From positions 1 through 64,000 of IMG/VR virus record IMGVR_UViG_3300028666_000022: a stretch of DNA of 64,000 nt, one strand, 5' to 3'. Positions 4,796 through 62,243 of the stretch are shown piece by piece; the stretch's first letter is position 1; every line of letters starts with the position of its first letter. Origin of the DNA: a virus. Made by a program: the position numbers and the translations under genes. The notes below the pieces were generated by a model, which was not told the DNA's origin, ran no database searches, and saw nothing but the letters and a program-made list of their open reading frames with translations.

Positions 4796-4814
4796 TGAAA
4801 ATAAAAATCATGTT

Positions 4815-14849: not shown

Positions 14850-16028
14850 GTGAAAACAATTTATAAAGCTTATAAGTTTAAATTAGAACCTAATAATTCT
14901 CAAAAAGAATTGTTACATAAACATTTCGGATCATGTAGGTTTATTTATAATTATTATCTTAACTTAAGAAAAGAAAACTATTTAAATAATAAAACAAGTT
15001 TAAACTATTATGATAATTCTAAAGATCTAACTCTTTTAAGGAAAAAAGAAGAATATATTTGGCTAAATGAAATTAACGCTCAAAGTTTACAACAATCCTT
15101 AAGACATTTAGATACTGCTTATAATAGATTTTTTAGAAAACAAGGTAAATTTCCTAGATTTAAGAAAAAGAGTGATAGACAGAGTTTTATTATACCACAA
15201 TCTATTATATTAAAAAATAATAAGCTTTTTATTGCTAAGTTTAGAGAAGGAATTAGTTTGAATTTATATAAAGCAATTGAGGGTAAAATATTATTTGCAA
15301 CAATATCGAAATCGCCAGTTGGTAAATATTATGTTTCAATTACTTGTGAGGTACAATATGAACCATATTCTAAAACTAATTCTAAGATAGGTATTGATAC
15401 TGGTATTAAGGATTTAGCTATCTTATCTGATGGTAAGATCTATAAAAATATTAAGGTTTTAAAAACTAATTTAAAAAAAATTAAATATAATCATAGACAA
15501 TTAAGCAAGAAGGTTAAAGGTAGTAAATCAAGGTTAAAACAACAAAATAAATTAGGTAGAATACATGAAAATGTAACAAACATAAGATTAGATTATCTAC
15601 ATAAAGTCAGTACAGAAATCGTCAAAAACCACGATGTTATATGTATTGAAGACTTAGCAGTAAAGAATTTAATGAAAAACCATAAATTATCACAAGCCTT
15701 TTCAGATGTGGCTTTAGGTACGTTTTATAATATGCTTACTTATAAAGCTAATTGGAATGATAAGACTGTTGTAAAAATTGATCGTTGGTTTCCAAGTAGT
15801 AAGACATGTTCAAATTGTGGTTACATAAATCAAGATTTAACTTTAAGTATAAGAGAGTGGGTTTGTCCTGACTGTGGGATAAAACATGATAGGGATTTAA
15901 ATGCTTCAAAAAATATCCTAATACAAGGGTTGAATGTATTGTCTGGTTCAGGGATTGAGTCGGACACTAAACAAAAACAGGTGGAGTCGTTGTCAAAAGG
16001 CGAGGCTATGAAACCTGAAGCAAATTAA
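14850..16028 (+). mobile_element. tnpB: TnpB (IS200/IS605-type RNA-guided nuclease)
   Basis: 392 residues with GTG start. The N-terminus YKFKLEPNNSQKELLHKHF is the usual opening of the family. RuvC residues are D in IGIDTGIKDLAILSDG, E in VICIEDLAV and D in HDRDLNASKNIL. The zinc finger is CSNCGY...CPDCG. All catalytic parts appear intact. There is no TnpA transposase next to it, so it is an orphan tnpB. It is placed at the 3' end of glf with a duplicated glf tail downstream, as expected from homing or gene conversion. The guide RNA would come from the 3' end of this gene and the flank near 16048. Confidence 0.88.
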
Positions 16029-24142: not shown

Positions 24143-24479
24143 AACTGATTATTCTGAATTAATTCAAAAATATAGTAATATATTAGAATTGATTAATGCT
24201 GGTGATAACATTTCAAACCTTGCTGTTGTTATTGATATTGGAACTAAATATATTAAAGAAAAACATAATGATTTAAATCCAGATTGGAAAACTTGGTCAC
24301 TGTTTTATTTACTTAAGAAATATTTGAAAAATAATGTTCAAAACAAATTTGAGATAAATAAAATTATCGATGAATTTGTTATTTATTATAAATTAGAATA
24401 TCAAAATTATAATAATGAATTAGAATTATATGTGAGTGATTTTGATAGAGATTATGAATTTGTTTATGAAAAACTTTGA
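24123..24479 (+). CDS. Hypothetical
   Basis: 118 residues, MSDLINKTDYSELIQKYSNI. The start lies inside the end of the purine gene. The middle has NPDWKTWSLFYLLKKYLK. Unknown. Confidence 0.55.
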   Translation: MSDLINKTDYSELIQKYSNILELINAGDNISNLAVVIDIGTKYIKEKHNDLNPDWKTWSLFYLLKKYLKNNVQNKFEINKIIDEFVIYYKLEYQNYNNELELYVSDFDRDYEFVYEKL

Positions 24480-24615
24480 AATAAACTCTGAATTACATGA
24501 TCAACTTAAATTAATACATTCTTTTCATAATGAATTAAAAAAAATTCGAAAAGAAATGGGAATTGATTCATATTTTGAATTATATAATGAACTTATATCT
24601 GAATTAAAAAATTAA
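24466..24615 (+). CDS. x-x-E-L microprotein (outlier copy)
   Basis: 49 residues, MKNFEINSELHDQLKL start and YFELYNELISELKN end, with three E-L steps four residues apart. The first member by position, 14 kb before the main arrays. It overlaps the end of the previous gene. Confidence 0.5.
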   Translation: MKNFEINSELHDQLKLIHSFHNELKKIRKEMGIDSYFELYNELISELKN

Positions 24616-38390: not shown

Positions 38391-38492
38391 ATGAAAAACA
38401 AAGAACTAAGATCAAAACTAAATTTAGAACTAAATTCAGAACTATATTCAGAACTAAGATCAGAACTAGATTCAGAACTAACTTCAATATAA
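38391..38492 (+). repeat. Short Ser-Glu-Leu-x repeat ORF
   Basis: 33-residue ORF ending NSELYSELRSELDSELTSI, made of 12-bp units close to TTCAGAACTAAA. The 3' end TTCAATATAAGAATTAATAA is shared with the ORF at 38670, so they are recent copies. No promoter of either class is obvious. Confidence 0.6.
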
Positions 38493-38669
38493 GAATTAAT
38501 AAATTATCCCATACTACCAACAATATTTAATATTAATTATTGTTACAAACTCAGTATTAATGCTATTTATTGAAAGGTTCATTAACAGTATGTTTTACAT
38601 ATTTTTATATAGTTAAAGTACAATTAAAACATAATTAACTTGGTTAAAATCAAATTTAGAAAAAGCATT

Positions 38670-38855
38670 ATGAAAAACAAAGAACTATATTCAGAACTAA
38701 ATTCAGAACTATATTCAGAACTAAGATCAGAACTAGATTCAGAACTATATTCAGAACTAAATTTAGAACTAAGATCAAAACTATATTCAGAACTATATTC
38801 AGAACTAAATTCAGAACTAGATTCAGAACTAAATTCAGAACTATCTTCAATATAA
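38670..38855 (+). repeat. Long Ser-Glu-Leu-x repeat ORF
   Basis: 61 residues with 14 tetrapeptides such as YSELNSELYSELRSEL. The opening MKNKEL matches the microprotein family. Pure repeat and lack of drift suggest recent expansion by slippage or unequal crossing-over. The opposite strand is also open here but only as a mirror of the repeat. Confidence 0.65.
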
Positions 38856-38876
38856 GAATTAATAAATTAACCTTCC

Positions 38877-41404: not shown

Positions 41405-42379
41405 ATGAGACACATTAATAACCTTAAAAAAATTAACGATTTTCTTTTATCCTTAGATATTCCTTTTAGAAATGAAGGAAATATTTTTTATTTAAACGAA
41501 GACAAATTTCAAATTCGTTATGTAGATTCAGAAAATCATAAAATGGATTATGAGAAAAGATTTGGCATTAAAGGCATTCCACATAATTACTTTATTAACA
41601 TAACAAAAAAGAATAAAGAATTAGGCATTAGAACGATGTGGATCAAAGATTGGGAATTAGAGGAAACTAAAACAATTACTAGTATAGAAGGAAATGTATT
41701 GACTGATTATAACCGTAAATGGAATGTTTTACAGTCATATATTAAAACTGCAACGGGTAAAATTAATAACCGTGTCTTTGCCAGAGATTGTGAAATAAAA
41801 CAAATAACAAATAAAGAACTTAGACCGTTTTTAGATGAAAATTGTTTCTACGGTTATAGAAGTTCTAATATTAATTTGGGTTTATATCTTAAGAAAGATA
41901 AGAATAATGTTAAAGCTGGTACATTATTAATGTGCTATACATTTGGACACCCTTTCTTTGGAAAGGGTTTGTACGATGTTGAAATAATTAGGGTAGCTAC
42001 AAAACTAAATCACCAAGTAATTGGCGGTGCAAGTAAATTATTAACTAATTTCTTAAAAAATTATCCGGTTTTGAATATAGCTGGTAAAGAAGTTAATGTT
42101 AATAAAATAGTTTTTATAGTCGATGCTGATCACAATGATGCTAAATCTTTAGATACTTTAGGTTTTACTTTTGTCAGTCATTCTGGTAATGGTTTTATGA
42201 ATGTTGAGGCAGCAACAGGAAAAGTATTTCATCGTCAACCAATGCACCATAAACTTATCATGGAAAGAATGGCAAAGGGTGAAGTTTATAGCGTTGCTAA
42301 TGCTGGCTCAATTATTTATACAATAGATAAAAATGAGTATTTGAAAAAACTTGATAATAAAACAGAGGTTGAAAACTAA
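41405..42379 (+). CDS. Hef-like / Mom-like phage protein
   Basis: 324 residues. The C-terminal 200 residues follow the domain often called Hef-like homing endonuclease C-terminus: VFARDCEIKQI, CFYGYRSSNINLGLY, EIIRVATKLNHQVIGGASKL, VDADHNDAKSLDTLGF. That domain has a GNAT/Mom-like acyltransferase pattern rather than a nuclease active site. I see no nuclease motif in the N-terminal 120 residues. A DNA- or RNA-modifying role is possible. Confidence 0.6.
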   Translation: MRHINNLKKINDFLLSLDIPFRNEGNIFYLNEDKFQIRYVDSENHKMDYEKRFGIKGIPHNYFINITKKNKELGIRTMWIKDWELEETKTITSIEGNVLTDYNRKWNVLQSYIKTATGKINNRVFARDCEIKQITNKELRPFLDENCFYGYRSSNINLGLYLKKDKNNVKAGTLLMCYTFGHPFFGKGLYDVEIIRVATKLNHQVIGGASKLLTNFLKNYPVLNIAGKEVNVNKIVFIVDADHNDAKSLDTLGFTFVSHSGNGFMNVEAATGKVFHRQPMHHKLIMERMAKGEVYSVANAGSIIYTIDKNEYLKKLDNKTEVEN

Positions 42380-44807: not shown

Positions 44808-44948
44808 ATGGTAAATATTGAATACAATAAAAATTTTAACCTTAATTTTATTTTCAATGTCATTGATAATTTATATTTTACTTTAGTTGATTTAGTGCAG
44901 CAAGAAGGTAGAATGATATTTGCTTCTGAATTAGATGAGATAATATAA
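44808..44948 (+). CDS. x-x-E-L family-like microprotein, weak register
   Basis: 46 residues, MVNIEYNKNFNLNFIFNVID. Start and acidic end (ASELDEII) fit the family, but the four-residue phase is poor. First member of the 44.8-47.6 kb array. Confidence 0.45.
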   Translation: MVNIEYNKNFNLNFIFNVIDNLYFTLVDLVQQEGRMIFASELDEII

Positions 44949-44959
44949 TAACATGTCTT

Positions 44960-45124
44960 ATGAAGAATAAAATATTAGTTGATGCTTTACATCAAAAAGG
45001 AAATTATCTTAATATGGAAAATATTAATTTAAATGTAGATTTAAAAATGAGTTTTGGTGAAGATTTAGAGACATTTCACAGAGAATTTGATGTGGCATTA
45101 TTAATTTCATTATATAATAATTAA
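44960..45124 (+). CDS. x-x-E-L microprotein
   Basis: 54 residues. INLNVDLKMSFGEDLETF keeps the register for five steps (NL, DL, SF, DL, TF). Confidence 0.5.
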   Translation: MKNKILVDALHQKGNYLNMENINLNVDLKMSFGEDLETFHREFDVALLISLYNN

Positions 45125-45132
45125 ATAATTTT

Positions 45133-45354
45133 ATGAAAAATATAATTATTGATATTCTACTAAAAAGAGAACTATGTAAGATGAAAAGTATTATTAATTC
45201 TGTTCGAATGAATGATGATAACATAGAGGATTATTTAAATACTAATTTATATTTAATATTGAAAGCAAACTTAATATTTGAAATAAATAATGACTTTGGT
45301 ATTAATTTAGATACAGAACTAAGTTCTGATATAGATACTGAGTTTTTAAACTAA
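45133..45354 (+). CDS. x-x-E-L microprotein
   Basis: 73 residues. The end GINLDTELSSDIDTEFLN is in register; the first half (IIIDILLKRELCKMKSIIN) is more hydrophobic than in other members. Confidence 0.5.
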   Translation: MKNIIIDILLKRELCKMKSIINSVRMNDDNIEDYLNTNLYLILKANLIFEINNDFGINLDTELSSDIDTEFLN

Positions 45355-45361
45355 TTGCTAA

Positions 45362-45712
45362 ATGAAAAAGTTTATAATAGACATATACAATAATAAGTTT
45401 CAGTTATATTTGGGTTTTACTTTGGTATCTGAGTCTGGTTTTAGTATTGAGCAACCAGATGAATTTTTTAATGAAAAATATTTTACACTATATGAATTAA
45501 AGACATTAGAGGAATTTCAGAGACAAGGATTTGCAAAATATTTATTATATCAGATATTTGATTATGTAAAGAATGAACTTAGGATTAATATTATTACATT
45601 AATTGTTTATAAAAATAATCATAGTGCAGTAAATTTATATTTAGATAGTGGATTTGAAATATATAATGACTATGATGATTCATATTCACTAATAAAAACT
45701 TTTGTCTTATGA
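45362..45712 (+). CDS. GNAT acetyltransferase
   Basis: 116 residues. Motif A is EFQRQGFAKYLLYQIFDYVK (acetyl-CoA loop Q/RxxGxA) and motif B is NNHSAVNLYLDSGFEIYND. It is the only recognisable enzyme inside this microprotein array and is coupled by TTATGA to the next small ORF. Target unknown. Confidence 0.8.
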   Translation: MKKFIIDIYNNKFQLYLGFTLVSESGFSIEQPDEFFNEKYFTLYELKTLEEFQRQGFAKYLLYQIFDYVKNELRINIITLIVYKNNHSAVNLYLDSGFEIYNDYDDSYSLIKTFVL

Positions 45713-45876
45713 AAAATGAAGTTTTAAATAATAGTAATATGTTCTCTAATTTACATATGTTTCATAGTGAATTAGGTACTGACTTAGATTCTGAATTATT
45801 TTATAAAGTTTCAATTAGAAATGAATATGTTGAATTAAATGTTATTTTTTATGAGGAGTTAAATTTTGATAATTAA
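45709..45876 (+). CDS. x-x-E-L microprotein
   Basis: 55 residues. HSELGTDLDSELFYKV in the centre; it starts inside the stop of the acetyltransferase gene. Confidence 0.55.
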   Translation: MKNEVLNNSNMFSNLHMFHSELGTDLDSELFYKVSIRNEYVELNVIFYEELNFDN

Positions 45877-45892
45877 TTAAAATAGATATTAT

Positions 45893-46078
45893 ATGAATAA
45901 TATTGAAAATTTAAATAGTTTGGAAAATAATTTATTTTTGTTACATAATAGTTTTAATATATTAACAAATAATACTCTAGATTTAGATTTATACTTTTTC
46001 GTTGATAAAACATTATGTGAAGAAATGGAAGTTGTTATATCATTAATTGAATTAGAATTAAAGTATGAATTACATTAA
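45893..46078 (+). CDS. x-x-E-L microprotein
   Basis: 61 residues. NNTLDLDLYFFVDKTLCEEM keeps register through five steps, ending ELELKYELH. Confidence 0.55.
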   Translation: MNNIENLNSLENNLFLLHNSFNILTNNTLDLDLYFFVDKTLCEEMEVVISLIELELKYELH

Positions 46079-46090
46079 ATAAATTTAGTA

Positions 46091-46267
46091 ATGGTAAATA
46101 TTGAAAAAGAAATTTATTTGAAGAATAGTTATAATTTGTTTATATACTTATTAGAATGTTCTTTAGATTTTAAATTAGATGTTTATTTAAATGATAATTT
46201 ATATAATAATTTGAATGATGAATTAAGAATTGAATTAAGTAATATATTAAACGATGAGTTAAAATAG
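46091..46267 (+). CDS. x-x-E-L microprotein
   Basis: 58 residues. NDNLYNNLNDELRIELSNIL then NDELK, seven steps in register. MVNIEKEI start as at 44808. Confidence 0.6.
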   Translation: MVNIEKEIYLKNSYNLFIYLLECSLDFKLDVYLNDNLYNNLNDELRIELSNILNDELK

Positions 46268-46271
46268 GTAT

Positions 46272-46478
46272 ATGAAAAACAAAGAGATTGTTTTAAAGAA
46301 GAAAGGAAAATTATATTATTCATTTGGTTCTAAAGATATTGATTTAAATGATGGGTTAAATAATATGATTAGAAAATCTATTAATAATAAGCTTTATTTT
46401 GAATTTAATGAATTATATTCTGATATTAATAACAACATAAATGATTTAGATGGTGATTTGTTTCGAGAATTGAGGTAA
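46272..46478 (+). CDS. x-x-E-L microprotein
   Basis: 68 residues. NNKLYFEFNELYSDINNNIN in the middle and DGDLFRELR at the end. The N-terminus VLKKKGKLYYSFGSKDIDL is unusually basic. Confidence 0.5.
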   Translation: MKNKEIVLKKKGKLYYSFGSKDIDLNDGLNNMIRKSINNKLYFEFNELYSDINNNINDLDGDLFRELR

Positions 46479-46494
46479 ATATAATATTCGTATT

Positions 46495-46683
46495 ATGATT
46501 AACAAAGTAGAGTTTATATTTCATCATTTAGATATTTTACGTAGTGATTTGACTATTGATTTAGATGATAAATTAAAGTATAATTTTTCTATATTATTAA
46601 GTAGGAATTTATATATTAATTTACGTTTAGATATGAGTAATGAATTTGATGTTGAAATAGAAAATGATATAAAACAATTATAG
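46495..46683 (+). CDS. x-x-E-L microprotein, long register
   Basis: 62 residues. From DLDDKLKYNFSILLSRNL on to DVEIENDI the fourth position is L, L, F, L, L, L, M, F, I, I: ten consecutive steps. Confidence 0.6.
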   Translation: MINKVEFIFHHLDILRSDLTIDLDDKLKYNFSILLSRNLYINLRLDMSNEFDVEIENDIKQL

Positions 46684-46685
46684 TT

Positions 46686-46868
46686 ATGCTTAATAAAGTA
46701 ATAAAACTAGAATTAGCTGAATTTTTTGTCTATGGTTTAGGAAACGAAATAGAAAAAGAATTATCTATGACGAACTTATCCTATTGTAATTTAAGTTTAG
46801 AATTATATGATACTATATATGATAATTATAATAATTTGGATGACGAATTAAAGAATGATTTAAATTAA
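46686..46868 (+). CDS. x-x-E-L microprotein
   Basis: 60 residues, MLNKVIKLELAEFF; register seen in SLELYDTIYDNY and again in DDELKNDLN after a one-residue slip. Confidence 0.5.
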   Translation: MLNKVIKLELAEFFVYGLGNEIEKELSMTNLSYCNLSLELYDTIYDNYNNLDDELKNDLN

Positions 46869-46877
46869 TATATTCAT

Positions 46878-47063
46878 ATGAAAAACAATAAAACATTAGA
46901 GTTTGAATTAAGAAGTAATTTATATGCTAGATTAAATTCTATGTTTGATTTTAAATTTGATTTAATATGTGAATTAGATAGAAAATATAATTTAGATTTG
47001 AGGCAGGAAATTTTTATTGAATTTGATGATGAATTGACATGGAATGAAATAAATATTATATAA
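46878..47063 (+). CDS. x-x-E-L microprotein
   Basis: 61 residues. EFELRSNLYARLNSMFDFKF is in register for five steps; the end is more tryptophan- and isoleucine-rich. Confidence 0.55.
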   Translation: MKNNKTLEFELRSNLYARLNSMFDFKFDLICELDRKYNLDLRQEIFIEFDDELTWNEINII

Positions 47064-47068
47064 ATTGT

Positions 47069-47242
47069 ATGAAAAACATTGAACTTATACATTCATATCC
47101 TTTTACTTATAAATTATATGATCTTACTGATGATTTAATTATAGATACAATAAGCAGTAATTTAAATCATAAAACGTTTGATGATATTAATATAATTGAT
47201 TTAGATGAATTAAGATCAGAACTATCTTTAATATTAGAATAA
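47069..47242 (+). CDS. x-x-E-L microprotein
   Basis: 57 residues, MKNIELIHSYPFTYKLYDL start; the end DELRSELSLILE is in register and resembles the SEL tracts at DNA level (TCAGAACTATCTTTAATA). Confidence 0.55.
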   Translation: MKNIELIHSYPFTYKLYDLTDDLIIDTISSNLNHKTFDDINIIDLDELRSELSLILE

Positions 47243-47250
47243 ATATTTAT

Positions 47251-47448
47251 ATGGTTAATAAGGAAATAATTGGAGTAAATATAATAGAATTTGATGATTT
47301 ACTTCTTGTTGATTTAAAACAATTAAGGTTTAATGAAATTGAATACGGGCTTGATGATTATATTTATATTAATTTAATTAGAGATGTTTATAATACATTA
47401 CATAATGAATTAGAGATTATATTATGGGATGAAATAGAAATTATATAA
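47251..47448 (+). CDS. x-x-E-L microprotein
   Basis: 65 residues, MVNKEIIGVNIIEFDDLLLV. The register is broken in the middle but returns near the end (HNELEIILWDEIEII). Confidence 0.45.
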   Translation: MVNKEIIGVNIIEFDDLLLVDLKQLRFNEIEYGLDDYIYINLIRDVYNTLHNELEIILWDEIEII

Positions 47449-47453
47449 ATGAT

Positions 47454-47636
47454 ATGAAAAATTTTGAAACATGTCTTTTGCTTGAAAGGAAAATAAATCT
47501 GGATATTTATGATTCTTTATATAAAGATATATTAGGTGAAATCAGTTCTGTTTTATATTTTTATACATATGATAATGATTTGAGAATTGAGCTAACAACT
47601 GAATTAAATCGAGAATTAAAGTTTATGTTAGAATAA
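47454..47636 (+). CDS. x-x-E-L microprotein
   Basis: 60 residues. The end NDLRIELTTELNRELKFMLE is five perfect steps. Confidence 0.6.
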   Translation: MKNFETCLLLERKINLDIYDSLYKDILGEISSVLYFYTYDNDLRIELTTELNRELKFMLE

Positions 47637-47652
47637 TAAAATAATATGTTTT

Positions 47653-48153
47653 ATGGTTAATAAAGAAATTAAATTAGAATCTATTTCAGAATATTTTAAA
47701 TGGGAAATCACATTAGATTTAGATTTTGCATTAGATTCAAAAGGTAATTTAGTTAAAGACTCTAATGAATTAACAAAAGAATTTAAGATTGAATATCTTG
47801 ATGATATACCTCAAAATTATACCAGAGTTTATCTTTATGGTGTATTTGAAGTAATTAAGGATTGTATTAGATCAAATAAGAAATTTATAAAGTTTAATGA
47901 AGAACCAATACGTGTAATGATTAAAACCACTGATGATTGGTCACCAAATTTTGACAACAACAAAGTAAAATTATCTTATCTTGGATTAATAGCTAAAAAT
48001 ACATATAGAGTATGTATTTGGGGTGCTGATGATTGTGGAATGGAATATGATACTCCAAATAAAAATGATGCAAAAACAATGTTTGAAAAATTAAAACAAC
48101 AAGGAATTGTTACTAAAAAGGAATTGGAAAAATTAAAATTTAATTTTTGTTAA
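47653..48153 (+). CDS. Hypothetical with microprotein-like start
   Basis: 166 residues. The opening MVNKEIKLESISEYF resembles the preceding microproteins, but the rest is a different, folded protein (KLSYLGLIAKNTYRVCIWGA, later DAKTMFEKLKQQGI). It may have captured a family start by recombination. Function unknown. Confidence 0.55.
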   Translation: MVNKEIKLESISEYFKWEITLDLDFALDSKGNLVKDSNELTKEFKIEYLDDIPQNYTRVYLYGVFEVIKDCIRSNKKFIKFNEEPIRVMIKTTDDWSPNFDNNKVKLSYLGLIAKNTYRVCIWGADDCGMEYDTPNKNDAKTMFEKLKQQGIVTKKELEKLKFNFC

Positions 48154-48161
48154 GATATAAT

Positions 48162-48317
48162 ATGAAAAATAAAATTCTGATTCTTTGTTTTGATTCAAGT
48201 CTTTTTAGTGAGTTAACTACTGAAACATTACATATTCAGGATCATATATTTGGTTTTAATATGTATGTTGAAATTAATGACTTTGATGATATTTTAGAAT
48301 TAGAATTAAATTTGTAA
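48162..48317 (+). CDS. x-x-E-L microprotein
   Basis: 51 residues, ending INDFDDILELELNL. Its TAA stop is part of a TGTAAC that has no -10 partner, i.e. a decayed promoter. Confidence 0.5.
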   Translation: MKNKILILCFDSSLFSELTTETLHIQDHIFGFNMYVEINDFDDILELELNL

Positions 48318-50278: not shown

Positions 50279-50491
50279 ATGAAAAAAATAATAGCAATAG
50301 TAGGTTTATTAATGATGTTTTTATTAATTTTAGGTTATGTATTGTATGATATGTTCATTGAACCAATTATTACATTGTATAATAAATTTGGATTTAATGG
50401 CATAATAATATTTATTATCATGTGGATTGTTATTATAGTAATATATTACCTTATTTTTAAATTCATTAATTGGGCAATTGATAATGCATAA
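50279..50491 (+). CDS. Membrane protein
   Basis: 70 residues, two spans: IIAIVGLLMMFLLILGYVLY and IIIFIIMWIVIIVIYYLIF. The start was moved to 50279, after the stop of the upstream gene. Confidence 0.55.
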   Translation: MKKIIAIVGLLMMFLLILGYVLYDMFIEPIITLYNKFGFNGIIIFIIMWIVIIVIYYLIFKFINWAIDNA

Positions 50492-50666
50492 TATTCAAAC
50501 CACAGTATTTCTCGAAAATTATTTTCATAATATAGGATTTAATGATATTTCTTTTGATGATAATTTGGATATTGAAACCAATAATGAATTAAATCATTTT
50601 CTTTATATTGGTTTGACATTTGAACTTGCTTTTGATTTTGATGTTGCAATACAACTTGATTTATGA
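50484..50666 (+). CDS. x-x-E-L microprotein
   Basis: 60 residues. NNELNHFLYIGLTFELAFDF holds register for five steps. It starts inside the end of the membrane gene. Confidence 0.55.
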   Translation: MHNIQTTVFLENYFHNIGFNDISFDDNLDIETNNELNHFLYIGLTFELAFDFDVAIQLDL

Positions 50667-50833
50667 TAAACAAAGAAAATTTTGTTACGGATAATTCTAT
50701 TTTGCATAACCTTGATTTTGATTTGAAAATTCAAATTAATAATGACCTAGCATTAAATATTTCATCGCTTAAACGAAATGAATTAATAGAATTACATAAT
50801 GTTTTAATTCATGAACTTTTTTATTCCGAATAA
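50663..50833 (+). CDS. x-x-E-L microprotein
   Basis: 56 residues. FDLKIQINNDLALNI in register, then HNVLIHELF. ATGA coupling to the previous member. Confidence 0.55.
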   Translation: MINKENFVTDNSILHNLDFDLKIQINNDLALNISSLKRNELIELHNVLIHELFYSE

Positions 50834-50846
50834 AATATTATGATTT

Positions 50847-51044
50847 ATGATAAACGAAACGATGCAAGAAAATTTATGTCAAAAATATTTATATAATTTT
50901 GATAATGTCCTAATTTTAGATTTAAACAATATTTTGTGTGATTATACATATAGTAAGTTAAATAATTTATTAATTGATAACATCAATATAGAATTAAGTG
51001 AATTTAATGTGGAATTAAATCCAGTTTTTAAAGAATTTAAGTAA
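50847..51044 (+). CDS. x-x-E-L microprotein
   Basis: 65 residues, MINETMQENLCQKYLYNFDN; the end NIELSEFNVELNPVFKEFK has a one-residue slip in phase. Confidence 0.5.
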   Translation: MINETMQENLCQKYLYNFDNVLILDLNNILCDYTYSKLNNLLIDNINIELSEFNVELNPVFKEFK

Positions 51045-51050
51045 TGAAAT

Positions 51051-51215
51051 ATGAAAAATAATGTATTAGGTTCAGACGATGAATTAGAAGAGAAATTAAA
51101 TTATTCAATAGCCATGCCACTTGATGTATGGTTAAAAAATAGTATTTTCGATGAATTGGATGATGATGAATTTTTTATAAATTTTAATGATGAAATTGAA
51201 ATAATATTAAAATAA
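51051..51215 (+). CDS. x-x-E-L microprotein
   Basis: 54 residues, very acidic. MPLDVWLKNSIFDELDDDEF in the centre. Last member before the DUF6745 gene. Confidence 0.5.
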   Translation: MKNNVLGSDDELEEKLNYSIAMPLDVWLKNSIFDELDDDEFFINFNDEIEIILK

Positions 51216-51272: not shown

Positions 51273-52304
51273 ATGAAAACATTAGAAGATTTAACGCCCG
51301 AAATTAAGGCAAAAATTCCTATGTACAAAGAAAGATGTACTAAAGATCTATATTCCGGCGTGGAATATGATAATTTTAATCCTGAACAAAGTACTGCTTA
51401 TGTAGATAAGTTGTATGAGATATGTGGATTTGAAAAACCAGTTGTAATCTTTGCTGATGATCCAAATGATTACAAAAAGAAGTTAAAAGAACTTGAAAAA
51501 GGTAAGAAACTTCAGAAGGTATATGAACAGTATCTTAAGAAGAATAACTTGGAAAACGATGGTACAGTATTCGAAAATTGCAAATATGAGAATAAGTCTC
51601 ATTGGCTTTTCTTGTGTTCATCTTATCATAGAGTGTACCTAATGTGGTACAAGTTTATTCAAGATGAATTTCAAATAGATCATAAGAATAAAGATATTCT
51701 TAATTGGTTGTATGAAAATGCCAATAACAATATCGCTCGTTGTTTCTTTACAAAGATGTTTGTTCTTGTTCTTAGAATGCCTAAATACATTCATAGAAAT
51801 GCAATAGGTTTCCACAGTATAGATGGTGGTGCAATACATTGGCCTAATTATAATATGTATTACATTAATGGTCGTAGAATACCTGAAGATTTGTTCTTAA
51901 AAACAATCAATAAGGAACTTACTTTCGATGAGTTTATTAAGTTAACTGATGAAAATGTTAAGGGTTCATTGATAACTCTTATGAAAGAAAAGTTCGGAAA
52001 TGAATACTTAATGGCATTTCTTAATGCCAAAGTAATTGATGAACAAACTATTAATCATAGTAGTGGTTATAGTGAAGTAGTTAAACTTTGGCACACCAAT
52101 GAGAAATTTAGTTTTCTTGTTGATATTAACGGTGTTGAAAATCAACCTTATTCTTGGTTGGAACTTCATTGCCCCTCAACTGGTTCGATGTTTTTAATTG
52201 ATACCAGTGCTCACTTTGATAATGCAATAGAAGCTTGTAAGTATCATAGACCTCAACAAATTCCTGCTGAATTGAAATATGATTTCAATGAGTTTAACAA
52301 CTAA
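51273..52304 (+). CDS. DUF6745-like conserved protein
   Basis: 343 residues. Landmarks: VYLMWYKFIQDEF, GFHSIDGGAIHWPNYNMYYI, NGRRIPEDLF and a C-terminal block SWLELHCPSTGSMFLIDTSA. I recall this as a widespread protein of phages and bacteria without known activity. Codon use is less A/T-biased than the flanking microproteins. Its usual partner gene is at 54599, beyond an inserted array. Confidence 0.7.
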   Translation: MKTLEDLTPEIKAKIPMYKERCTKDLYSGVEYDNFNPEQSTAYVDKLYEICGFEKPVVIFADDPNDYKKKLKELEKGKKLQKVYEQYLKKNNLENDGTVFENCKYENKSHWLFLCSSYHRVYLMWYKFIQDEFQIDHKNKDILNWLYENANNNIARCFFTKMFVLVLRMPKYIHRNAIGFHSIDGGAIHWPNYNMYYINGRRIPEDLFLKTINKELTFDEFIKLTDENVKGSLITLMKEKFGNEYLMAFLNAKVIDEQTINHSSGYSEVVKLWHTNEKFSFLVDINGVENQPYSWLELHCPSTGSMFLIDTSAHFDNAIEACKYHRPQQIPAELKYDFNEFNN

Positions 52305-52449
52305 AAAGGTGTTTGAAAATAAGGAATTGGATAATGATCTTAAGTTATCCAATTCCTTATTTGATAATTTAAGACTAATGGATGATTTTAATATGTTGAA
52401 TTATGAAGAGCATATTGAATTGGGTAGTGAATTATGTTCCGATATATAA
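52288..52449 (+). CDS. x-x-E-L microprotein fused to DUF6745 3' DNA
   Basis: 53 residues. It starts inside the last codons of the previous gene (MSLTTKKVFENKELDNDLKL). The start sequence is repeated at 52450, which marks a tandem duplication. Repeats: NKELDNDL, NSLFDNL. Confidence 0.5.
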   Translation: MSLTTKKVFENKELDNDLKLSNSLFDNLRLMDDFNMLNYEEHIELGSELCSDI

Positions 52450-52454
52450 TTTCA

Positions 52455-52658
52455 ATGAATTTAACAACTAAAATGAAATTTGAGAATATAGAACTGGATT
52501 ATACTCTTCTGGAATTATCCTCCAGTTCTATGCTCATTGATTTAACTGATACATTTTCTTCAGATTTAGAATTTAGATTATTAACTAAAACAATTATAAT
52601 GTCAAACAGTGAAGAGTTTGTTGAATTAGCCGATAATTTATTTAATGAATTAAAATAA
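52455..52658 (+). CDS. x-x-E-L microprotein, duplicate of the previous
   Basis: 67 residues. MNLTTKMKFENIELDYTL aligns with MSLTTKKVFENKELDNDL of the neighbour, including the DNA TTTCAATGAATTTAACAA copied from the DUF6745 gene end. Later FSSDLEFRLLTKTI is in register. Confidence 0.55.
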   Translation: MNLTTKMKFENIELDYTLLELSSSSMLIDLTDTFSSDLEFRLLTKTIIMSNSEEFVELADNLFNELK

Positions 52659-52665
52659 TATTATT

Positions 52666-52854
52666 ATGTTTGATAATAAAGAAATAGATAACAGTTTATT
52701 TATTAATATGTTTTCATTTGAAAATGAATTAAGATATAATAAAATATCTAATGATTTAGATAATGTAATAAAAGAATTTGTTTTAAATAGTTTAAGAATT
52801 GAAATGTCTGTTGTATTAGGTTTAGTGTTTTATCTTGAAATAATTAATAATTAA
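52666..52854 (+). CDS. x-x-E-L microprotein
   Basis: 62 residues, MFDNKEIDNSLFINMFSFEN; NDLDNVIKEFVLNSLRIEM in register. Confidence 0.55.
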   Translation: MFDNKEIDNSLFINMFSFENELRYNKISNDLDNVIKEFVLNSLRIEMSVVLGLVFYLEIINN

Positions 52855-52863
52855 ATTCATAAT

Positions 52864-53049
52864 ATGAAAAATAATGAAATTGCTAATGAACTAGATATTC
52901 CAATATCTAATATAATCTCTCTAAAGATATGTAAAGAAAACAATAGATTTAGTGCCAATATATCATACAGCAAAATATTTGATTTAATGAATGATGAAAT
53001 ATTTATAGATTTACGTAATGCAATTTATTCTAATATAAGACATGAATAA
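52864..53049 (+). CDS. x-x-E-L microprotein
   Basis: 61 residues. FDLMNDEIFIDLRNAIYSNI is five exact steps near the end; the N-terminal half has more Ser and Lys. Confidence 0.55.
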   Translation: MKNNEIANELDIPISNIISLKICKENNRFSANISYSKIFDLMNDEIFIDLRNAIYSNIRHE

Positions 53050-53052
53050 TAA

Positions 53053-53232
53053 ATGAAAAATAATATACTAATAGAAAATGAATTTATTGCTCTAAATAAC
53101 ATGGGTGATAATTTTATTAATGATTTAATAAGTGGATTAAATTTTCATGATGCATTAACTGAGCTACGGTTAATGATAAGAGTTAATGATTTAGAAGAAA
53201 TATTTTTTAAAGATTTTGATTTTTTTAATTAA
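53053..53232 (+). CDS. x-x-E-L microprotein
   Basis: 59 residues, MKNNILIENEFIALNNMGDN; FINDLISGLNF and DALTELRL partly in register. Confidence 0.5.
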   Translation: MKNNILIENEFIALNNMGDNFINDLISGLNFHDALTELRLMIRVNDLEEIFFKDFDFFN

Positions 53233-53248
53233 AAATATAATATAAATA

Positions 53249-53434
53249 ATGAAATTTCAGAATATTGAAATTGTTGATATGTTTTTTAAAAAATCAAATA
53301 TGTTCTTTCAAGATTTAAAATACTCAATTTTAGATCTTAAGTTAGATGGAGAATTATTTGATAAAATTATATTTGAGGGAGATACAACATTATTGAACGA
53401 AATTGCTAATGATTTAGAAGATGAATTAAAATGA
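53249..53434 (+). CDS. x-x-E-L microprotein
   Basis: 61 residues. YSILDLKLDGELFDKIIFEG, then NEIANDLEDELK at the end. MKFQNIEI start resembles the member at 52455. Confidence 0.6.
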   Translation: MKFQNIEIVDMFFKKSNMFFQDLKYSILDLKLDGELFDKIIFEGDTTLLNEIANDLEDELK

Positions 53435-53610
53435 TTACTGAAACTAAGAACGATATTGAATTAAGAAAAATAAAACTATTGATTGAATCATTATATAATG
53501 ATTTATATATTAATATTCATATTGATTTAATGTTTAAAACCACCGATGAATTATTTGATGGATCATTAGGTGGATTAGAAAATGATATTGATAATGAATT
53601 AAAACAATGA
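53431..53610 (+). CDS. x-x-E-L microprotein
   Basis: 59 residues. NDLYINIHIDLMFKTTDELF holds register; ATGA couplings on both sides. Confidence 0.6.
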   Translation: MITETKNDIELRKIKLLIESLYNDLYINIHIDLMFKTTDELFDGSLGGLENDIDNELKQ

Positions 53611-53789
53611 ATAATAGTGATATTGCATTAGATTATATGTTATCAAAAAATAATTTTATTTTTAATAATGATTTTAATGTTAAATTAGATATGACACTAC
53701 AACATCAATTAATAAATCAACTTAGAATTAGATTATTTAGTGATTTATTAAATGAAGTTTACGATGAAACAGAAATAATAACCATATGA
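53607..53789 (+). CDS. x-x-E-L microprotein, long register
   Basis: 60 residues. VKLDMTLQHQLINQLRIRLF continues to SDLLNEV, seven steps. More Gln and Arg than other members, so the acidic character is not universal. Confidence 0.6.
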   Translation: MNNSDIALDYMLSKNNFIFNNDFNVKLDMTLQHQLINQLRIRLFSDLLNEVYDETEIITI

Positions 53790-53956
53790 AAAATTATGAA
53801 ATAAGTAAAATATTATCTTTTAAATTAGAATTTATTTCTGATATAACAGATAGATTTAATTATCATACTCATAAAAATATATATTTAGATTCTCTTGAAT
53901 TAATTGAACTTTTATTAGATGATTTAAATAGTGAGTTACAATTAGATTTAAAATAA
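53786..53956 (+). CDS. x-x-E-L microprotein
   Basis: 56 residues. The end LELIELLLDDLNSELQLDLK has five steps in register. Confidence 0.6.
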   Translation: MKNYEISKILSFKLEFISDITDRFNYHTHKNIYLDSLELIELLLDDLNSELQLDLK

Positions 53957-53960
53957 TAGA

Positions 53961-54140
53961 ATGAAAAATGTTACTCTTGAAGATTTGGATGAAAAAATAA
54001 TATTTCTTGATAATGATTTCGGATTATTTATGATTGAAATTTGCTCATATGGTTTAAATGATTATTTATATAGAGAATTTAATGAACTATTTGCAGATTT
54101 ATTTATAGAGATTAATAACGAAATTCAAATAAATAATTAA
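53961..54140 (+). CDS. x-x-E-L microprotein
   Basis: 59 residues, MKNVTLEDLDEKIIFLDNDF; FADLFIEINNEIQINN at the end. Confidence 0.55.
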   Translation: MKNVTLEDLDEKIIFLDNDFGLFMIEICSYGLNDYLYREFNELFADLFIEINNEIQINN

Positions 54141-54149
54141 ATTCATATT

Positions 54150-54356
54150 ATGAAAAATATTGAAATTGCAAACCGAAGGCAAAATATTAAAGCAATTATT
54201 AATTTGGAAGATAAATTACACGATTTTTTATATTCTTTCTTTAATGAAAATGATGAAATAAATATTGATTTACTCAATGAATTAGATCCAATCTTAAAAA
54301 ATAATTTACGAGAAGAGTTATTTAGTTTAAATATTGAAATCTTTATAATAATATAA
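54150..54356 (+). CDS. x-x-E-L microprotein
   Basis: 68 residues. LNELDPILKNNLREELFSLN in register; N-terminus MKNIEIANRRQNIKAI. Confidence 0.55.
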   Translation: MKNIEIANRRQNIKAIINLEDKLHDFLYSFFNENDEINIDLLNELDPILKNNLREELFSLNIEIFIII

Positions 54357-54364
54357 TATTGATT

Positions 54365-54526
54365 ATGAAAAACATTGAAATGCTTTTAGATTTAGAGTTA
54401 AAATTAGATCCTAATTCAGGTACTATATTATTTTTAGAATTAAGATCAGCAGTAAATTCAAAATTATTTAATTTATTCCCTTTTACAGAACAAGAATTAA
54501 TACTATATTTAGATATTGATATTTAA
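54365..54526 (+). CDS. x-x-E-L microprotein
   Basis: 53 residues, MKNIEMLLDLELKLDPNSGT; LFLELRSAVNSKLFNLF in register. Last member before the DUF6745 partner gene. Confidence 0.55.
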   Translation: MKNIEMLLDLELKLDPNSGTILFLELRSAVNSKLFNLFPFTEQELILYLDIDI

Positions 54527-54598: not shown

Positions 54599-54970
54599 AT
54601 GAAAATTCTAAAACAAGTAGGTCATCAAGGTGACACACAATGGTTTGCAATAGATGCAGTACCAGAAAATGCTAAGTTGTGTAAGAAACAATTTATTGCA
54701 GCAAGTGAAAAATCAGGCAACGTACATGCTCTTAGTGGAAATTACGATATGTACGAGTATGAGGACGGATTCGTAATTGATGTGAAAGATGATTGCGCAA
54801 TGCTTAATCATACAGCAATATCAGAACTTAACGAAAAAACTTGGAATAATCCTCAAGTACTTCCTCCACGTGATCATAGAAGTTCTGAGATTAAGAAGGG
54901 TGTTTATTTTGTAGGCATTCAAAGAAGGTTTAATCCTTTGAGTAAGCTTATGGAGAAAGTTAAGGATTAA
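54599..54970 (+). CDS. Conserved partner of the DUF6745-like protein
   Basis: 123 residues: MKILKQVGHQGDTQWFAIDA, KQFIAASEKSGNVHALSGNY, and GFVIDVKDDCAMLNHTAI. I recall it directly beside DUF6745 genes in other phages. Here 2.3 kb of microprotein array lies between them. Function unknown. Confidence 0.65.
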   Translation: MKILKQVGHQGDTQWFAIDAVPENAKLCKKQFIAASEKSGNVHALSGNYDMYEYEDGFVIDVKDDCAMLNHTAISELNEKTWNNPQVLPPRDHRSSEIKKGVYFVGIQRRFNPLSKLMEKVKD

Positions 54971-55028: not shown

Positions 55029-55241
55029 ATGGCTTTTGTTATTAAAAATGTAGGTATGAAATTTGAAAACTATATAGCAATTGATCAATTAGATAATATT
55101 TTATTTGATTATTTTAAAATATCGAAAGAAACCACATATAGTTTAGATAGATTTATTAATACTGAATTATTAATGGAGCTAAGAAATGAATTAGAAGATC
55201 AATTAGAAATTGAAACATATGAAAAATATTGTATTATTTGA
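55029..55241 (+). CDS. x-x-E-L microprotein
   Basis: 70 residues. NTELLMELRNELEDQLEIET is five steps. A start at 55056 (MKFENYIAIDQ) would match relatives better and give 61 residues. Confidence 0.55.
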   Translation: MAFVIKNVGMKFENYIAIDQLDNILFDYFKISKETTYSLDRFINTELLMELRNELEDQLEIETYEKYCII

Positions 55242-55383
55242 AGAATTAAATTCTAAGCTTATTATTGATGATGAATTAACTACATTAAATAATAAACTAA
55301 AATTTAATTTAAAACAAGCAATTAACCATCAAATTTTTGATGAATCATATTATTCATTAAGAAAAGAAATTATTAATGAATAA
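55219..55383 (+). CDS. x-x-E-L microprotein
   Basis: 54 residues, MKNIVLFEELNSKLIIDDEL; register moderate. It overlaps the previous member by 23 bases. Confidence 0.5.
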   Translation: MKNIVLFEELNSKLIIDDELTTLNNKLKFNLKQAINHQIFDESYYSLRKEIINE

Positions 55384-55390
55384 GAATAAC

Positions 55391-55522
55391 ATGAAAAATA
55401 CTATATTAAATAATAATTTGGATTATTCTTTAGATGGAGAATTACCAACAATATTAGTTGAAAATATTCACAATATATTAATGTTCGATGTTTTAATTAT
55501 TGATTTAGATATATTATTTTAA
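55391..55522 (+). CDS. x-x-E-L microprotein, short
   Basis: 43 residues. DYSLDGELPTILVENIHNIL in register despite a proline. Confidence 0.5.
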   Translation: MKNTILNNNLDYSLDGELPTILVENIHNILMFDVLIIDLDILF

Positions 55523-55523
55523 T

Positions 55524-55718
55524 ATGAAAAATATTGAAGCAGGAAATGTTATTACAGAAAATTCAATTTTTATTAATTTAATATTAATATCTTCTGATTT
55601 ATATAATACTTCGTGGAATGAACTAGATATAAAATTAATTAAATCAACTAGTTCTGATGATGAATTTAGAGGTGATCACATGAAAGAATTAAATGATGAA
55701 ATATCAGAAGAATTATAA
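55524..55718 (+). CDS. x-x-E-L microprotein
   Basis: 64 residues, MKNIEAGNVITENSIFINLI; SSDLYNTSWNELDIKLIKST in register. Confidence 0.5.
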   Translation: MKNIEAGNVITENSIFINLILISSDLYNTSWNELDIKLIKSTSSDDEFRGDHMKELNDEISEEL

Positions 55719-55722
55719 TAAT

Positions 55723-55908
55723 ATGAAAAATACAATATCTGTTGATGCATTAGATTATGTATTAACAAAAAAATATTTTGATGATATTTTATCTCAAAAA
55801 TTATCAATAAAATTATTTGGAGAAATTAATGAAAAATTATATGTTGAATTATTTACTGAACTAAATTTGGGTTTAGATCCAACAATTGGTTCAATTTTAG
55901 AAATATGA
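55723..55908 (+). CDS. x-x-E-L microprotein
   Basis: 61 residues. SIKLFGEINEKLYVELFTEL is five exact steps. The start at 55723 follows the previous stop; an upstream in-frame ATG at 55693 lies inside that gene. Confidence 0.6.
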   Translation: MKNTISVDALDYVLTKKYFDDILSQKLSIKLFGEINEKLYVELFTELNLGLDPTIGSILEI

Positions 55909-55912
55909 TTAT

Positions 55913-55943
55913 TGTAACAAAATGCATTTATTATTCGTATATC
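55913..55943 (+). promoter_or_regulatory. ECF-type promoter
   Basis: TGTAAC (55913-55918), 17 bases, CGTATATC. The only such promoter inside the 50-56 kb arrays. Confidence 0.6.
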
Positions 55944-55964
55944 AAAAGATAAAAATATAAAACT

Positions 55965-56153
55965 ATGAAAAATATTGAAATGGATCGGTGTGACATCATA
56001 GGAATTGAATTTCTATTAATGTCAACATTAAAAAATAATATATTTATTAATAGTAAGAATGCTTTATATTATGAAACAAAAAAAATTTTTATTTCTAACT
56101 TTAATGAAGATTTGGATATTATTCTTCGTGATGAATTACATAATAATCTGTAA
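55965..56153 (+). CDS. x-x-E-L microprotein with own ECF-type promoter
   Basis: 62 residues, MKNIEMDRCDIIGIEFLLMS, ending NEDLDIILRDELHNNL. It shows that at least one member is directly placed under this promoter class. The stop overlaps the next TGTAAC. Confidence 0.6.
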   Translation: MKNIEMDRCDIIGIEFLLMSTLKNNIFINSKNALYYETKKIFISNFNEDLDIILRDELHNNL

Positions 56154-60301: not shown

Positions 60302-60478
60302 ATGAAAAATGTTGAACTAGAATTTAGTTTTGTTAATGATAAAAGAAAGTTATATGTTTGTTATTTACATGCATTTAGAACTGAAGATGGAGAAGCAAAA
60401 CTTACTACAGAATTAAAAACAGGAAATAAAATTTGGATTGATATTTCTGCTTTTACTACTGATGGATCGTTTAAATAA
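60302..60478 (+). CDS. Small hypothetical
   Basis: 58 residues, MKNVELEFSFVNDKRKLYVC, then a more ordinary beta-rich sequence without the four-residue register. The start resembles the microproteins, the body does not. Confidence 0.5.
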   Translation: MKNVELEFSFVNDKRKLYVCYLHAFRTEDGEAKLTTELKTGNKIWIDISAFTTDGSFK

Positions 60479-60509
60479 TACATTGTAATGAGTTAAAACT
60501 AACGGGTTT

Positions 60510-60701
60510 ATGAAAAATATTGAATATATCGTTGATTTAAATTTTATGCTTCCAAATAAAACAATTAAAATATATTGTATGAATAAAAATTTAACATTTA
60601 AATCATATAAAAAATTAAAAATTAATTTATTTGATGTATCTTATGATGAATTATATTTTGAATTATCAAGAATTTTCGAATTTGAATTAGATTATGAATA
60701 A
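60510..60701 (+). CDS. x-x-E-L microprotein
   Basis: 63 residues. YKKLKINLFDVSYDELYFEL in register; the opening MKNIEYIVDLNFMLPNKTIK is less acidic than most. Confidence 0.55.
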   Translation: MKNIEYIVDLNFMLPNKTIKIYCMNKNLTFKSYKKLKINLFDVSYDELYFELSRIFEFELDYE

Positions 60702-60891
60702 TGTTGAATTTGAATGTTATTTACTTAATAACATTAAGCTTCCATTTAATTATCCTCTAAATGATATTAATTTGACAAATCATTTATATGTTAATATAAA
60801 AACACAATTATTTGGTACATCATTTAATGAATTATTTTCTGATTTAAATAATGATATTGCTAATGATTTAAATTTAATTTATCGTTTGTAA
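60694..60891 (+). CDS. x-x-E-L microprotein
   Basis: 65 residues. FNELFSDLNNDIANDLNLIY; overlaps the previous member, and its TAA is in the next TGTAAC. Confidence 0.55.
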   Translation: MNNVEFECYLLNNIKLPFNYPLNDINLTNHLYVNIKTQLFGTSFNELFSDLNNDIANDLNLIYRL

Positions 60892-60916
60892 CAAAATGAA
60901 TTTTCATACGTATATT
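60887..60916 (+). promoter_or_regulatory. ECF-type promoter
   Basis: TGTAAC (60887-60892), 16 bases, CGTATATT. Confidence 0.65.
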
Positions 60917-60956
60917 ATAGAAACAAATATGTATTAACAATTAAAACAAAAATTTT

Positions 60957-61199
60957 ATGAAAACAAATACTATTGATCCAATAAAGTATTTTGATGATTT
61001 TTCAGATGAAGATTTATATACTATGGCAATGGAATTACAAGAACCATTTATTTCAAATGATGCTTTAATTAGAAAACATTCTGAAATTATCTACGGTAAA
61101 AGTAATTTAGTTAATTTCGTTGGTTTAGGAACAATATTGTGCAAAACATTAGCTTTTAGATTAAAAGAATATTCACCAAATTTAAATGAATTATTATGA
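60957..61199 (+). CDS. Small hypothetical
   Basis: 80 residues, MKTNTIDPIKYFDDFSDEDL; helical. ATGA coupling to the next gene. Confidence 0.5.
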   Translation: MKTNTIDPIKYFDDFSDEDLYTMAMELQEPFISNDALIRKHSEIIYGKSNLVNFVGLGTILCKTLAFRLKEYSPNLNELL

Positions 61200-61366
61200 A
61201 AAAACAATTTTCTCAATGTTTATTAATGTCGTTAGGACTTACAATAATATTTTTACCAATATTTTTTGGAATGATGTTGAATAAACCCTTTTTTGTTTTT
61301 GGTTTAGTGATTATAATGCCAATTGGATTACAAATTATTAATATAGCAATTAATGATGATATATAA
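61196..61366 (+). CDS. Membrane protein, tail possibly cut by a stop
   Basis: 56 residues with two spans (LLMSLGLTIIFLPIFFGMML and FVFGLVIIMPIGLQIINIAI). After the TAA the same frame stays open to 61429 and reads YLNKQISDLEERISELENED, a good coiled coil, so the C-terminus may have been lost by nonsense mutation. Confidence 0.5.
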   Translation: MKKQFSQCLLMSLGLTIIFLPIFFGMMLNKPFFVFGLVIIMPIGLQIINIAINDDI

Positions 61367-61459
61367 TACTTAAACAAACAAATATCTGATCTTGAAGAAA
61401 GAATTTCGGAATTAGAAAATGAAGATTAATACAATGTGCAACAAATAAAAACTAAAATT

Positions 61460-61726
61460 ATGGTAAGTCCAAAACTCTTCGAATCCCAGAAAACATCATG
61501 TTCTTGCTGTGGAGAACAAATGGAAAAAAATAATTGTTGTACCTATGAAAATGTATTGTATTGTGATAATTGTTTAAAAACAATAATAAAAAATGATCTT
61601 CAAAAATTAGAACAAAAAGTAAGTGAAGCAGAAAAGTTTGTAAGTTTAATTTATCCAATAAAATCAACTAATGTTTCATCTATTGACGATGTGATGTCAG
61701 GAACTACAATTAACATTAATCATTAA
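61460..61726 (+). CDS. Zinc-ribbon hypothetical
   Basis: 88 residues: CSCCGEQMEKNNCC and YCDNCLKTI supply a four-Cys site; a helix follows. The ATG at 61460 follows the AACAAATAAAAACTAAAATT leader. Confidence 0.55.
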   Translation: MVSPKLFESQKTSCSCCGEQMEKNNCCTYENVLYCDNCLKTIIKNDLQKLEQKVSEAEKFVSLIYPIKSTNVSSIDDVMSGTTININH

Positions 61727-61737
61727 AAATAATTTTT

Positions 61738-61893
61738 ATGAAAAAACAAACTTTATTTGCAATCGTTTGCGGTATTATGTTTGGTAACCTTACCAATGCA
61801 ATTGGACTTTCAATATTAAATCCCGGATTTTGGATTATTGTTCTTCTTGGTTCAGTACTTATGAATATCATTTATTTTAAATGTAAAAATTAG
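61738..61893 (+). CDS. Small membrane protein
   Basis: 51 residues, two spans, MKKQTLFAIVCGIMFGNLTN. It shares the MKKQ... start with the membrane gene at 61196. Confidence 0.5.
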   Translation: MKKQTLFAIVCGIMFGNLTNAIGLSILNPGFWIIVLLGSVLMNIIYFKCKN

Positions 61894-61899
61894 AATTCT

Positions 61900-61930
61900 T
61901 GTAACAATTGCAAGGATTTTTACGTATATT
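61900..61930 (+). promoter_or_regulatory. ECF-type promoter
   Basis: TGTAAC (61900-61905), 17 bases, CGTATATT. Confidence 0.6.
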
Positions 61931-61958
61931 ATATCATTAATAATTTAAAACCAAAGTC

Positions 61959-62234: not shown

Positions 62235-62243
62235 AGATATTAT

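Follow-up and report, generated by a model that had tools for sequence, protein, structure and literature searches.

Tetrad-repeat microproteins of a large phage as the probable detached form of a hypervariable tract in DUF6745-type proteins

Introduction

How did two almost purely repetitive small open reading frames (ORFs), together with the dozens of four-residue-periodic small genes that accompany them, arise in a single phage genome, and with what would their products act? The question is raised by the first 64 kb (hereafter, the window) of the 339,898-bp viral record IMGVR_UViG_3300028666_000022, a stretch of 24% GC in which two ORFs between positions 38,391 and 38,855 encode little other than the tetrad x-Ser-Glu-Leu (xSEL). 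Genes such as a ribonucleotide reductase, the nearest matches of which include Bacteroides phages, suggest that the source is a jumbo phage, probably with a host in the Bacteroidota; blastn and megablast of the region against GenBank phages returned nothing useful and no near relative at the DNA level. The explanation favored herein, which we consider probable, is that the microproteins are the hypervariable tract of DUF6745-type proteins in detached form, that they have been copied as capped genes with turnover of their repeat units, and that they act together with a DUF6745-type protein and a second conserved protein, the HQGD protein.

Pure xSEL Tracts

The initial annotation described the two ORFs as near-perfect 12-bp repeats encoding Ser-Glu-Leu-x and sharing identical 3' ends, a description that holds, except that the 12-bp unit is not the same throughout: a constant 9-mer is preceded by a varying codon, NNN-TCAGAACTA (NNN TCA GAA CTA), read as x-Ser-Glu-Leu. 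Tandem Repeats Finder assigns both tracts a period of 12, with 7.1 copies in the ORF at 38391 and 13.6 copies in the ORF at 38670, and its scores for the two (107 and 235) exceed those of all other arrays within the window. The 9-mer is found in 19 interior units, the exceptions being two TTA and two AAA variants, and is preceded there by AAT (6 units), TAT (6), AGA (4), or GAT (3); x is Asn, Tyr, Arg, or Asp, and both ORFs are tetrad tracts in the working sense of three constant last residues and an x drawn from a permitted set. In these 19 units, four-fold synonymous sites of Ser and Leu have changed in 0 of 38 cases, as opposed to 13 of 38 departures from the mode at the first two positions of the x codon (Fisher p=7e-5).

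Both ORFs are free-standing rather than lodged inside a DUF6745-type protein. They are identical over the first 19 nt from the ATG and over a 26-nt 3' end reaching 14 nt past the stop; those last 14 nt (GAATTAATAAATTA) are the end of a duplicated cassette, and the shared segment starts exactly at the ATG, the DNA upstream of the two ORFs being unrelated. The antisense strand of the pure tracts is also open, with a tetrad-like repeat (window 38668-38850; contig L042, 390-677), because the 9-mer is near-palindromic.

Tracts Within DUF6745-Type Proteins

A scan with the pure proteins led to phages with tandem xSEL ORFs built on another 9-mer, TCTGAATTG, and a scan with a tract alignment led to free-standing arrays in two further phage contigs, G001 and G005, as well as to tracts lying within large proteins. 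In L048-L051, about 50 xSEL or xREL units form part of a 573-residue protein that at its two ends shares 53% and 37% identity with the window protein encoded at 51273, while in L052 a tract lies ahead of a Pfam DUF6745 domain (E=7e-26). Internal tracts likewise occur in Manatee Spring phage (xSSL) and in gp38 of the Mycobacterium prophage prophiGD102-1 (x[GD]QL), the general form being x-[SDAN]-[EQN]-[LVI] in front of a conserved C-terminal domain. The family of the window 51273 protein is itself homologous to DUF6745 proteins over its full length (hhalign probability 98.2, E=3.7e-14, 304 aligned columns). The 9-mer differs by phage (TCAGAACTA, TCTGAATTG, AGCAGCCTC) yet encodes the same kind of peptide. 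In a pooled set of 579 units (19 contigs), D, R, G, Y, W, N, S, H, or C occupies x in 97.9% of cases and strong helix formers (A, E, K, Q, L, or M) account for 1.2%, with different codons used in different genomes. Changes of x affect mainly the first two positions of its codon. The pure tracts had been proposed as the birthplace of the family; the deeper source instead appears to be the hypervariable tract of DUF6745-type proteins.

Other searches contributed little. The exact DNA pattern TCAGAACTANNNTCAGAACTA gave 16 matches in IMG/VR and no relatives, and tblastn of the pure tracts against phages and plasmids gave no meaningful match, probably owing to low-complexity masking. Bacterial genomes and a few viral contigs (most of L055-L066) also contain short xSEL microsatellites, which resemble chance tracts and were left aside. 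On plasmid 3 of N. farcinica NCTC11134 (L080, 92-1932), the N-terminal part of DUF6745, the tract, and the C-terminal part each lie in a different frame, and the gene is consequently annotated as a shortened 269-residue protein; the cause is a frameshift or an assembly error.

Cis/Trans Exclusivity and the Conserved Locus

With the two conserved proteins as scan queries, about 45 distinct contigs were recovered, which were scored as cis where the DUF6745-type protein carries a tract of at least nine units (275-628 residues, some cut by contig ends) and as trans where at least two free tetrad ORFs lie within 8 kb. Free tetrad ORFs accompany 0 of 20 cis contigs and 16 of 23 tract-less ones (p=9e-7). 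As related contigs are not independent, they were clustered, leaving 0/14 versus 8/10 at 90% identity (p=6e-5) and 0/11 versus 4/6 at 70% identity (p=0.006). The tract-less exceptions comprise short contig ends, G211 with its array at another site, L108, in which diverged members were recognized by eye at 3696-5566, and the L131/L139 cluster. Because the tract is found either inside the DUF6745-type protein or free beside a tract-less one, the microproteins appear, on sequence evidence, to be the detached (trans) form of the DUF6745-type tract. The simpler reading would be that the tract was ancestrally internal and became detached, probably on more than one occasion, because the early branches of the phage clade are cis and a tree built without the tract has at least four state changes, two of these perhaps being the rows of Ma-LMM01 and Streptomyces, which are tract-less.

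The surrounding locus recurs as well. In G001 (128,957 bp), a DUF6745-type gene is followed by about 20 microproteins and then by a 124-residue HQGD-motif protein, and the window has the same order, from the 51273 gene through an array to the 54599 gene; in G005, microproteins flank the DUF6745-type gene on both sides, and the contig ends before the HQGD end. In G211, a related 334-kb phage, the two conserved genes stand 124 bp apart with nothing between them, and diverged tetrad microproteins are found at 243-280 kb instead (leucine autocorrelation at lag 4, z=+9.0 and +6.1). The corresponding empty-site comparison for the pure ORFs found no homolog of either neighbor in G211, G001, or G005. 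The HQGD family is a distant relation of Ma-LMM01 gp175 (hhalign E=1.6e-7), which adjoins the DUF6745 gene gp174, and DUF6745 genes also have RQGD-type neighbors on a Deinococcus plasmid (E=2e-8) and, with weaker matches, on Streptomyces plasmids.

It is possible, albeit doubtful, that the microproteins function independently, perhaps as acidic decoys or by inhibiting host defense, and that their nearness to the DUF6745-type and HQGD genes reflects shared ancestry and not function. Their high copy number and acidic composition (D+E 18%, K+R 9% in diverged members) speak for such a role, as does a pace of change exceeding that of their neighbors: the ratio of nonsynonymous to synonymous substitution rates (dN/dS) is 0.52 for diverged members and 0.14 for other genes between L118 and L119, and L131 and L139 have DUF6745-type proteins 99.4% identical and a microprotein 62% identical over 34 residues. 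Cis/trans exclusivity and recurrent co-location nevertheless predict a joint role, and no match of the microproteins to known families was obtained at trusted scores. Given exclusivity and co-location, our best guess is that the microproteins provide a variable binding surface shared with the DUF6745-type and HQGD proteins, with which they may physically associate.

Structure prediction and further profile searches added little on the two conserved proteins. The AlphaFold2 model of the window 51273 protein (predicted local distance difference test score, pLDDT, 75) yielded neither a Foldseek match at E<=0.001 nor a VIA-align match at Z >=5; that of L049 including its tract reached pLDDT 49, and the tract, rendered as a low-confidence helix, was not interpreted. 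HQGD and DUF6745-type profiles found no match of note among PDB sequences, and a PF20530 search of 198 genomes of one phylum gave no match, its controls being equally silent. In the 324,744-bp phage L108, a 310-residue homing-endonuclease-like ORF sits between the DUF6745-type gene and an altered-start HQGD gene (6732-8336). On Streptomyces and Deinococcus plasmids (L081, 1-339; L083, 1893-3363), DUF6745 genes adjoin genes of the STM4011/STM4012/STM4015 families.

Gene Copying and Unit Turnover

In G001 and G005, microprotein N-caps and C-caps are conserved, as is the junction between successive genes, at which the closing codons of one meet the opening codons of the next and the stop overlaps the start; because of this conserved junction DNA and a 215-bp segment matching itself at 88.8%, whole capped genes are concluded to have been copied. 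Within the genes, units turn over. A comparison of repeat number between relatives, as the initial annotation had proposed, does reveal differences: flanking identity between L142 and L143 is 97.1% across 5.6 kb to one side and 96.3% across 1.6 kb to the other, nearby proteins are 94-100% identical, and the two contigs carry 4 and 2 microproteins, respectively, one of which, ahead of the next conserved gene, has identical caps (ATGAAACAAATA AGTTCACAGCTC ... CAAAATACAAAATTATGA) enclosing 6 versus 15 repeats (counted as 12-mers between start and end caps; QL units alone give 5 versus 14). Repeat number is equal in L046 and L047 and among L048-L051, which are possibly re-sequenced samples and so offer no proof of stability. 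In the diverged arrays of L119 and L120, most orthologs are 95-100% identical, and genes have been gained, lost, and reordered.

Unit turnover accounts for the frozen synonymous sites of the pure tracts; since turnover alone would homogenize x too, the diversity of x must be either selected or specially generated, and we infer that selection for a varied, exposed face is the likelier cause. A more elaborate system, in which a tract-less DUF6745-type core would be combined with exchangeable microproteins, each bearing a distinct x face, and in which a dedicated process (mutational targeting or strong diversifying selection) would diversify the x codon as the rest of the 12-bp unit is homogenized, seems unlikely on present evidence.

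These data also bear on the proposal that short tracts become ORFs de novo through 12-bp slippage and later diverge, yielding a family unconnected to any larger protein. Its account of change within the family fares well, as unit turnover is fast, close relatives differ in unit number, and pure, intermediate, and diverged members coexist, the gradient being continuous in G001 and represented by one intermediate in the window. Slippage as the source of the ORFs finds no support: the shared caps and junction DNA of G001 and G005 indicate that new ORFs are genes copied whole; single-unit slippage is insufficient because x is diverse while synonymous sites of the same units are frozen; and the same tract is internal to DUF6745-type proteins, in exclusivity with free ORFs. 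As an explanation of the family, slippage is thus improbable.

Diverged Tetrad Microproteins

Some 45 further small ORFs in this phage, mostly at 44-62 kb, keep a strict four-residue leucine period; they commonly begin M-[KVIN]-N-[IKN], and Leu, Asp/Glu, and Asn are abundant in them. In a test independent of alignment, the leucine autocorrelation of 45 diverged members was z=+15.4, +10.6, +7.6, and +6.4 at lags 4, 8, 12, and 16 but fell below zero at lags 1, 3, 5, and 7, with 138 other small ORFs staying within |z| of about 3. As an amphipathic helix or heptad coiled coil would give positive values at lags 3 and 7, the pattern points to a constraint on exactly four residues. No memory of the repeat DNA is seen as CTA enrichment in these members, where CTA makes up 30 of 409 Leu codons (43967 left out) against 7.1% in the genome (p=0.84), although it provides nearly all Leu codons in the pure tracts. 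The claim that the other members keep the period but not the DNA is therefore borne out: nothing of the repeat is left in their DNA, and the period persists in the protein. A profile of diverged members built without the pure tracts matches the latter at E=1e-12 (38670 ORF, with 14.5 bits of compositional bias) and 1e-6, the bias being strong for both matches. We read the pure ORFs as the least-decayed, young or freshly homogenized, members of an old microprotein family. That the tracts are instead DNA or RNA elements (iteron-like or protein-binding arrays) with incidental ORFs is favored by the invariance of the 9-mer in the pure tracts, even at synonymous positions, but is very improbable, for the 9-mer differs by phage for the same kind of peptide, the amino-acid period outlives the DNA in diverged members, tracts lie in frame within large proteins, and dN/dS is 0.52 in diverged orthologs.

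Proposed History of the Array

Detachment from the DUF6745-type protein would have left a tract-less protein at 51273-52304 whose tracts surround its gene as dozens of small genes. Tandem copying of whole capped genes would then expand the array; in young copies, 12-bp units would be gained, lost, and reshuffled, keeping the SEL codons homogeneous, with x kept diverse, presumably by selection for an exposed, variable face. Older copies would lose their DNA identity, their four-residue period persisting through constraint at the protein level. The microproteins would thereby supply the variable binding surface that elsewhere is built into the DUF6745-type protein, and would act with it and the HQGD protein.

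Several observations weigh against this history. The window 51273 protein has no match to PF20530 at the curated Pfam cut-off, and its G001 relative reaches E=0.009, likewise under the cut-off. A distance of 12-13 kb separates the pure ORFs from the DUF6745-type gene. The L131/L139 cluster is tract-less with few or no microproteins detected nearby, the array of the tract-less L088 is located in another part of its genome, and Ma-LMM01 gp174 has no tract and no known microproteins. Deep branches of the tree are weakly settled, rendering the number of cis-to-trans switches uncertain. Lastly, the close relatives are all metagenomic contigs, in which repeat counts may carry assembly errors.

Features of the Window

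Tract ORFs, diverged members, and the two conserved genes of the window
Feature	Positions	Strand	Remarks
Outlying diverged member	24454-24615	+	Low profile score
Pure xSEL tract ORF, 33 residues (MKNKELRSKLNLELNSELYSELRSELDSELTSI)	38391-38492	+	Tandem Repeats Finder, translation, unit analysis
14 nt 3' of the stop (GAATTAATAAATTA), common to both pure ORFs	38493-38506	+	Recurs at 38856-38869
Pure xSEL tract ORF, 61 residues	38670-38855	+	Profile match and unit analysis
Intermediate, partly decayed xSEL ORF, 74 residues	43967-44191	+	6/10 CTA; DSKL ESDL FTEL YLKL DSEL
Diverged tetrad array: 44808, 44960, 45133, 45709, 45893, 46091, 46272, 46495, 46686, 46878, 47069, 47251, 47454, 48162	44808-48317	+	Few other genes interspersed
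Four diverged tetrad microproteins	50484-51215	+	Immediately upstream of the DUF6745-type gene
Tract-less, divergent DUF6745-type protein, 343 residues	51273-52304	+	hhalign; relatives L049, L068
About 12 diverged tetrad microproteins between the two conserved genes	52279-54526	+	Interval empty in G211
HQGD protein, 123 residues, usual partner of DUF6745-type proteins in phages	54599-54970	+	Distant relative of Ma-LMM01 gp175
Diverged tetrad microproteins 55029, 55219, 55376, 55524, 55693, 55965	55029-56153	+	
Further diverged tetrad microproteins 60302, 60510, 60694, 62244	60302-62423	+	

Elsewhere in the window, the ribonucleotide reductase large subunit (6085-9855) contains an in-frame intein with a LAGLIDADG domain, an IS605 OrfB/TnpB-like transposase with a Cas12f1-like TNB domain is encoded at 14850-16028, and an HNH/homing-endonuclease-like ORF (41405-42379) lies near the microprotein array.

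Significance and Comparison With Known Systems

Dozens of orphan small genes of a jumbo phage hereby gain an origin and a likely partner, and a repeat domain is seen switching between an internal form and a detached, multi-gene form. The series from pure to diverged members, along with the pair of 6 and 15 units, offers natural material for measuring the birth, diversification, and fixation of coding repeats; the confinement of variation to x across many phages is an unexplained pattern that is now directly testable, and a long-lived repeat system that changes far faster than its neighbors is opened to study. A literature search of partial coverage found no paper on DUF6745, phage microprotein arrays, or this arrangement.

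The nearest counterparts are the DUF6745 (PF20530) proteins with internal tracts, such as prophiGD102-1 gp38 and cta39025 UOF77368, which carry the same tetrad tract, likewise with a constant 9-mer and a variable x, have homologous N- and C-terminal parts, and in several cases have the same HQGD-type neighbor; in the window, by contrast, the tract takes the form of dozens of separate small genes, and the protein falls under Pfam detection. Ma-LMM01 gp174-gp175 likewise places a DUF6745 protein beside an HQGD-like one, but gp174 is without a tract, and no microproteins were seen in the stretch read. The amino acid tandem repeat (aaTR) proteins of Borgs are also coding tandem repeats with units divisible by three and fast evolution (PMC9879509), and the pure tracts, as in-frame coding tandem repeats with fast change in unit number, are of this type, homology not being claimed. 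Borg repeat units are reported to be virtually all unique and near-perfect, and small repeat-only Borg proteins have been suggested to be de novo repeat peptides (PMC9879509). Unlike the Borg aaTR proteins, the system described herein follows one tetrad logic across many phages, is linked to one protein family, confines its variable codon to x, and spreads by the copying of capped genes.
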